Position numbers and translations under genes: made by a program
Assembly: GCA_937873695.1 (NCBI GenBank)
Contig: CALMYL010000017.1
Span: 62,001-126,000 of the forward strand
Direction of reading: 5' to 3'
Source: an uncultured Ignavibacteria bacterium
Lineage (GTDB): Bacteria; Bacteroidota; Ignavibacteria; Tepidaquicellales; OLB5
DNA length: 64,000 bases
Part shown: piece after piece, positions 62,735 through 64,000 of the stretch
Position numbering within the stretch: position 1 is the first letter of the stretch
Layout: each line of letters opens with the position of its first letter
The notes under the pieces: model-generated
The model's input: only the letters and a program-made list of their open reading frames with translations
What the model was told of the DNA's origin: nothing
Databases searched by the model: none

Positions 62735-63304
62735 ATGAAAAAAATTAAAATAGTATGTATAGGCGGAAGTATGGAAATGAGGTCTTCCACTCTGGGCATA
62801 CTGAAGTTTACAGCTGAAAAACTAAAAGAACTTGGCGCAGAAGTTTATGTTTCAGATATCCGGTCATTGAAGCTTCCTGTATTCAGTTATAAAACAATGA
62901 AAGCATTGAATAACCCCGGGTTTGCAGGACTGGTGAAAAAAATCAGAACTGCTGACGGTCTGGTATTTGCTTCACCTGAGTACCATGGCTCAGTCAGCTC
63001 AGCTTTTAAAAATGTAATAGATTACCTTGAGGTGCTATCTGCTGAGAAGCCTCCATATCTAAGTCTTAAGCCTGTTGGATGTATAGCTCTTGGAGGAGCG
63101 GAAAACGCCGGATATGCTACTTTGAACAGTATGATAAGTATTGTGCATAACCTAAGAGGAATTGCGGCTTCAAACAGTCTGGCTATTGGTTACGGCAGTT
63201 CGATTTTTGACAGCAAAGGCAGACTTAAGAACGAAGCAATAATAAAAAGGCTTAACAGGCTGGCAGAAGAAGTATACGTACTTTCGGAAAGACTCAGAGA
63301 TTAA
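62735..63304 (+). CDS. NADPH-dependent FMN reductase (flavodoxin-like)
   Basis: A 189-residue protein from the ATG at 62735 (MKKIKIVCIGGS); an ATG at 62690 would add 15 residues that do not fit the fold. It has the FMN-phosphate loop GGSMEMRSST at 9-18, the ring-binding SPEYHGSVSSAFKNVIDYL near 86-104, and a GGAENAGYATLNSM segment. Such enzymes reduce FMN, quinones, chromate or azo compounds using NAD(P)H. The substrate is unknown. Confidence 0.85.
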   Translation: MKKIKIVCIGGSMEMRSSTLGILKFTAEKLKELGAEVYVSDIRSLKLPVFSYKTMKALNNPGFAGLVKKIRTADGLVFASPEYHGSVSSAFKNVIDYLEVLSAEKPPYLSLKPVGCIALGGAENAGYATLNSMISIVHNLRGIAASNSLAIGYGSSIFDSKGRLKNEAIIKRLNRLAEEVYVLSERLRD

Positions 63305-63331: not shown

Positions 63332-64000
63332 ATGAAGAAATTGTATTCACGAAAGAGGATCTACATCAGTCTTATACCGCTTGCGGCATTTTTTGTGTTA
63401 GCAGCCGGTGCACTTTGGCAGAACAAAACGGAAAATGTTCAGAGGAAGGATTCGGCTGTTTTTAACGGAAGTTCTTTAAAGGAAGTTAAGAAAGATAGTC
63501 CGGAAAGTGAGATGACTGATGAGGATGAAAACAGTACAGTACCTGATACAGTGAAGATAGGGGCATATTTGTTTTCATTGTATGATATGGACTTTCCGGG
63601 CAACAAACTGAATGTTGATTTTTATCTGTGGTATAATACAAAAAAAGACAGCATGTCTTTGCTGGAAAATCTTGAGATCATAAATTCAACTGAGATCAAT
63701 AAATCTTATGAAATGAATGAAAAACGCGGTGATATCTATTTTCATTCAGTAAGGATAAGTACACAGATAAAGGAACAATGGGAAGTGAATAATTTTCCAT
63801 TCGATAAACAGCTGATCGAGATCAAGATTGAAGATTTTGATAAAGATAATACCAAAATGGTTTTTGTTGCAGATACGGCCGCCAGCAAAATAGATAAAGA
63901 TGTTCATCTGGACGGCTGGAAGATAAAAGACTTTGATATAAAAATAGATGATCATACATACGAAACAAACTACGGCGATCCGGATATACCGCTGGATGAA
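63332..64000 (+). CDS. N-terminal part of a protein with a pentameric ligand-gated channel-like ectodomain (partial)
   Basis: The frame starts with ATG 63332 and is cut by the window edge after 223 residues. Residues 1-28 form a signal or membrane segment. After an acidic linker, residues from about 77 contain VKIGAYLFSLYDMDFPGNKLNVDFYLWYN, which has the strand order of bacterial pLGIC extracellular domains. The central block EQWEVNNFPFDKQLIEIKIED (about 151-171) fits the Cys-loop FPFDxQ signature without cysteines, as in GLIC and ELIC relatives. Four membrane helices would be expected past the edge. It could instead be a soluble ectodomain-only relative. Confidence 0.6.
   Translation, partial: MKKLYSRKRIYISLIPLAAFFVLAAGALWQNKTENVQRKDSAVFNGSSLKEVKKDSPESEMTDEDENSTVPDTVKIGAYLFSLYDMDFPGNKLNVDFYLWYNTKKDSMSLLENLEIINSTEINKSYEMNEKRGDIYFHSVRISTQIKEQWEVNNFPFDKQLIEIKIEDFDKDNTKMVFVADTAASKIDKDVHLDGWKIKDFDIKIDDHTYETNYGDPDIPLDE

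Follow-up and report, generated by a model that had tools for sequence, protein, structure and literature searches.

A predicted Cys-less pentameric ligand-gated ion channel encoded beside a putative exported amine oxidase in an Ignavibacteria bacterium

The stretch of DNA analyzed here (the window, 64,000 nucleotides, C17:62001-126000, from a 3.78 Mb assembly of an uncultured Ignavibacteria bacterium) ends inside a gene. An open reading frame on the plus strand starts with ATG at 63332 and stays open for 223 codons up to the window edge at 64000, and the complete gene, located at C17:125332-126423, comprises 363 codons without an internal stop. Most of the membrane part of the encoded protein falls beyond the window, where the gene continues with REGKGLFFKLFIGLFISVLISLLTFFV (M1), RFGLSVGAIFAAIASQYVITSTLP (M2) and then M3 and M4. 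The full protein begins with a signal or anchor segment and an acidic linker, followed by a beta-sandwich ectodomain that carries the FPFDKQ motif, a pre-M1 arginine and four membrane helices (Table 1). The ectodomain, this motif, the arginine and the helices are also conserved among its relatives. The first-pass annotation had described the hydrophobic start, the acidic stretch, the strand pattern and FPFDKQ in the part lying within the window, all of which are present, and had proposed to look for four membrane helices past 64000; these are indeed found 3' of the ectodomain.

Table 1. Features of the channel gene and of its neighbors (window positions unless a contig or locus is named)
Feature	Position	Strand	Remark
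Upstream neighbor, putative NAD(P)H-dependent FMN reductase-like flavoprotein	62735..63304	+	assigned by reading the sequence; 27 bp 5' of the channel gene
Basic stretch, then hydrophobic segment (residues 1-30); either a signal peptide or a membrane anchor that is not cleaved	63332..63421	+	Kyte-Doolittle mean 2.4 over 15 residues
Linker (residues 31-70), first half basic, end acidic	63422..63541	+	length and sequence variable among orthologs
pLGIC ectodomain	63542..64000	+	153 of 168 residues inside the window; ends at Arg238, outside the window
Pro-loop FPFDKQ (residues 155-160)	63794..63811	+	no flanking cysteines
P0003, Tat-signal FAD amine oxidase gene, 453 aa	L003:2430-3791 = C17:126430-127791, beyond the window	same strand as the channel	twin-arginine signal and Amino_oxidase domain

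The earlier proposal that this protein is a pentameric ligand-gated ion channel (pLGIC) is supported by the helices, by the match of a family profile to GLIC and by the predicted fold. As a single sequence the protein reaches 17.6 bits with the Pfam ligand-binding-domain (LBD) model, below the cut-off of 26, E 1.1e-20 with NCBIfam LGIC_1 (74.3 bits vs a cut-off of 500) and E 6e-13 with NCBIfam LIC, also below the curated cut-off; all of these cut-offs are curation thresholds and not defining features. The Pfam LBD is detected at E<=0.01 in 15 of the 18 family members, and a paralog, P0002, clears the Pfam cut-off at 27.1 bits while the window protein stays below it. The marginal match obtained when the PDB was searched with the single sequence (E 0.004) was settled by the profile of the 18-sequence family, since this matched GLIC chains with E 2.3e-17, aligned from before the Pro-loop through M4. 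In the profile search that had been suggested, LGIC_1, LIC and the family profile against GLIC are significant and the Pfam LBD alone is sub-threshold. The channel belongs to a Bacteroidota/Ignavibacteria subfamily of pLGICs which is mostly missed by the Pfam and NCBIfam models at their cut-offs.

A structure model was built from L005, an ortholog 84% identical to the window protein, with an alignment of eight sequences. It is a low-confidence model (mean pLDDT 58) in which some ten strands precede four helices (241-264, 271-293, 299-329 and 333-362). A Foldseek search with it returned GLIC on top (E 1.1e-16), then the rho1 GABA-A receptor, the glycine receptor and sTeLIC, all in the range from 1e-16 to 1e-15 and with TM-scores of only about 0.4. 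Because of these low values the model supports the fold class and not its details; at this confidence, the beta-sandwich of a ligand-binding domain is predicted for the channel protein. No relatives of the channel were found in the viral contigs searched.

The signature of the superfamily is [F/Y]PxD in the beta6-beta7 loop, with an absolutely conserved proline (PMC4795631). F155-P156-F157-D158 agrees with this pattern, and P156, F157 and D158 are invariant in the 18 members, as are, among others, W100, W150, Q160, the beta9 tryptophan W196, Y210, the pre-M1 arginine R238 (aligned with GLIC R192) and the M2-M3 proline P295; the M2 0' arginine is R272. All signature residues listed in PMC4795631 are present except the M1 kink proline, which is replaced by Gly250, invariant in the 18 subfamily members aligned. 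This proline occurs in 77% of pLGICs and glycine in 5% (PMC4795631); as it is absent in 23% of them, it is common but not defining. The ectodomain of the window protein lacks cysteine altogether and hence has no disulfide flanking the Pro-loop, by which metazoan-type Cys-loop receptors are recognized. Since the flanking cysteines are absent, the motif is a Pro-loop and the label "Cys-loop" given to it earlier was wrong. On the basis of sequence and model we consider the gene to encode, with a probability of about 0.9, a Cys-less (Pro-loop) pLGIC of the inner membrane.

The ectodomain is preceded by the acidic cluster ESEMTDEDEN, and the linker of the window protein holds 10 acidic and 6 basic residues after the hydrophobic segment. 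The acidic linker, which had been called unusual, is real, but it is variable, poorly conserved (identity between orthologs is 21-36% vs 64-94% in the ectodomain) and limited to part of one bacterial family: it is present in most of this family, in the genus of the window and in G296 from a second genus, and short ordinary N termini are found in G297 from a third genus and in G368, the genome with the closest ortholog outside this family (62% identity). Compared with other members, the hydrophobic segment has a higher average hydrophobicity, and no conserved signal-peptidase motif was found among the orthologs; possible cleavage sites ending in AGA or SGA occur in some of them and are absent in L009 and L010. 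High hydrophobicity together with the lack of a conserved cleavage motif makes it possible that the N-terminal segment stays uncleaved as an anchor and continues into a flexible tether.

Orthologs of the channel are present in 14 of the 15 genomes of its own family, and the lone genome without one is 64% complete. Purifying selection acts on both the ectodomain and the membrane part (dN/dS 0.02-0.06 where dS is unsaturated), which, together with this distribution, indicates that the reading frame is more than a product of chance. Some channel match was found in 33 of 245 genomes of the class Ignavibacteria and in 21 of the 296 genomes of the phylum sample. Considering these 33 class genomes and the 61 further bacterial genera reported in a 2016 survey (PMC4795631), the earlier statement that prokaryotic members are few is dated. 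With the search terms used, no publication naming a pLGIC in Ignavibacteria was found. In a phylogenetic tree the 29 subfamily rows form one clade (support 100/100), separate from six further bacterial pLGICs that were included, some of them on very long branches; P0002 sits on another branch of the subfamily than the window protein.

P0002 (L004:7967-8911, i.e. G000:C7:167967-168911, minus strand) is a second pLGIC of the same genome, 314 aa long and 34% identical, and is surrounded by glycosyltransferase-type genes. A partial second copy of the channel in another genome (L063, G306:C86:8148-8792, a 219-codon frame 61% identical over residues 4-228) possibly comes from a contaminating contig, the G306 genome having 6% contamination. 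Distant pLGICs of the phylum (L030, L031, L032, L035 and L077) lie in long frames of about 740 aa or more. Judged by eye, L077 has a periplasmic-binding-protein-type domain before the channel and the other four have a Cache-like sensor between helices, both of which match the pattern described in PMC549065.

P0003 starts 6 bp 3' of the channel stop codon. Its Amino_oxidase domain is matched with E 1e-63, and the nearest structure is 7eme (E 3e-50), for which no paper was found in the literature search, followed by monoamine oxidases and L-amino acid oxidases. In the alignment with monoamine oxidase the lysine and one cage tyrosine are kept and the covalent-FAD cysteine is not, residues whose roles there we take to be those of the flavin lysine, the aromatic-cage tyrosine and the covalent attachment of FAD. 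An oxidase gene lies 3' of the channel on the same strand, with a gap of 6 bp to about 35 bp, in all 14 channel-bearing genomes of the family. Wherever flanks were read in the family, the genes follow one another as channel - oxidase - peptidase-like - phosphatase-like, and a block of about 12 genes, including those further out, is syntenic across it; the adjacency of channel and oxidase therefore represents one event and not 14. Outside the family the pairing was absent: there is no oxidase-type gene beside the G368 ortholog, no channel in the 1.5 kb flanks of oxidase orthologs from other families, and no oxidase homolog closer than about 5 kb to P0002 or to the more distant channels retrieved. 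For these reasons the linkage was rejected as independent evidence. In one assembly (L008:7057-8417, G298:C16) the oxidase gene is split into two frames and the channel is intact, which is due to either decay or assembly error.

Positions in the pore of the window protein follow the GLIC numbering (2', 6', 9', 16') and were counted backwards, starting at the M2-M3 proline. The pore-facing residues are D-2', P-1', R0', G2', G6', F9', A13', Y16' and S20'; five of these, R0', G2', G6', F9' and Y16', do not vary among the 18 members. Position -2' is Asp or Glu in most members, and in P0002 and its closest relatives an Asp stands at -1'. The acidic -2' moderately suggests that the channel is cation-selective; D-2'/P-1'/R0' mixes a GLIC-like acid with a glycine-receptor-like RxGL start, which makes this selectivity uncertain.

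The pore sequence raises the question of whether the protein conducts at all, as a glycine-rich M2 with Phe9' and Tyr16' could belong to a mere sensor or scaffold that does not use the fold as a channel. Positions 2', 6', 9' and 16' differ from those of GLIC (T2', S6', I9' and I16') and, being invariant, probably serve some specific purpose. However, glycine receptors, with Gly 2', and ELIC, with an aromatic 16', both conduct. Phe at 9' is moreover found in 13% of pLGICs and Arg or Lys at 0' in 79% (PMC4795631), and we regard a non-conducting protein as very improbable. As in GLIC and DeCLIC, gating may be by protons or divalent ions; an Asp/Glu-rich ectodomain would then sense pH or calcium and not some organic ligand. 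This tentative possibility is in accordance with the acidic ectodomain loops (EDFDKDN; D181 is invariant, D172 and D188 nearly so), with the calcium control known in bacterial pLGICs (PMC9897478), and with proton-gated GLIC being the closest solved relative by sequence, although GLIC tops the match list partly because the database holds very many GLIC mutants.

The neighboring gene offers another ligand. A periplasmic amine could open the channel and the Tat-exported oxidase, encoded 6 bp further on one transcript, could destroy this amine and end the signal. The close, same-strand oxidase gene in every channel-bearing genome of the family, the twin-arginine signal and strong domain match of P0003, its conserved lysine and cage tyrosine, and the opening of the bacterial pLGIC ELIC by primary amines (PMC3119659) all point in this direction. 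However, the synteny of the whole block reduces the family-wide pairing to a single event, and neither the G368 ortholog, nor the oxidase orthologs of other families, nor P0002 and the distant channels show it. With the pairing conserved in the family and found nowhere else tested, the case for an amine ligand amounts to no more than a hint and such a sensing pair is unlikely. The most elaborate version, in which a pLGIC tethered by its N terminus, gated by an amine and unusual in its pore shares one transcript with a Tat-exported oxidase that clears its ligand in the periplasm, we consider quite improbable.

The best-supported reading is a receptor channel which faces the periplasm, responds to an ion or a small solute by opening, and would most likely pass cations. 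The fold and the coupling residues can be recognized in the predicted protein, while its assembly, gating and ligand we infer from the pLGIC family. Five subunits would form the pore with the ectodomain facing the periplasm, and a small solute would bind between subunits at the loop C aromatics, Tyr210, which is invariant, and Tyr/Phe214, conserved in type. A salt bridge between Asp158 of the Pro-loop and Arg238 would then transmit the motion to the M2 helices, and the pore would open and pass mainly cations, in keeping with the acid that most of the subfamily carries at -2'. The hydrophobic gates would be Phe9' and Tyr16', with the glycines 2' and 6' below them. That the ligand is an amine removed by the adjoining exported oxidase is a guess held with low confidence.

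Ligands and physiological roles are unknown for most prokaryotic pLGICs. Here strong selection maintains a subfamily throughout one bacterial family, its invariant pore is unlike that of GLIC, and the neighboring oxidase suggests a ligand class; should amines gate the channel, it would join the small number of bacterial pLGICs for which a natural ligand and a role can plausibly be named. A receptor whose ligand is cleared by an oxidase would distantly resemble the pairing of a receptor with monoamine oxidase.

P0002 and the Bacteroidota homologs L014-L020 are of the same subfamily (31-36% identity) and share the M2 motif R[FL]GLxVGxxFA, but they have an ordinary short signal peptide, no linker and no amine oxidase gene nearby. 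Amine-gated ELIC of Erwinia/Dickeya belongs to the same superfamily and, like the window channel, has an aromatic residue at 16'. Bacterial pLGICs described by Tasneem et al. (PMC549065) are fused to or in operons with periplasmic binding, Cache or MCP-N domains and were proposed to be chemoreceptors of small solutes; the window channel shares their core receptor module, but has only a linker in place of an extra folded domain and no binding-protein neighbor. GLIC, 14-16% identical to the L005 model in the structural alignment, shares the ectodomain with four helices, the Cys-less Pro-loop, the beta9 tryptophan, the pre-M1 arginine, the acidic residue at M2 -2' and the proline in the M2-M3 loop. 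It differs by Pro204 in M1 in place of Gly250, and by T/S/I/I instead of G/G/F/Y at 2'/6'/9'/16'; the long N-terminal segment and acidic linker of the window channel are a further difference. As the receptor domain and the four helices are as expected, the channel is an ordinary but genuine addition to the known family, with an unusual pore sequence.
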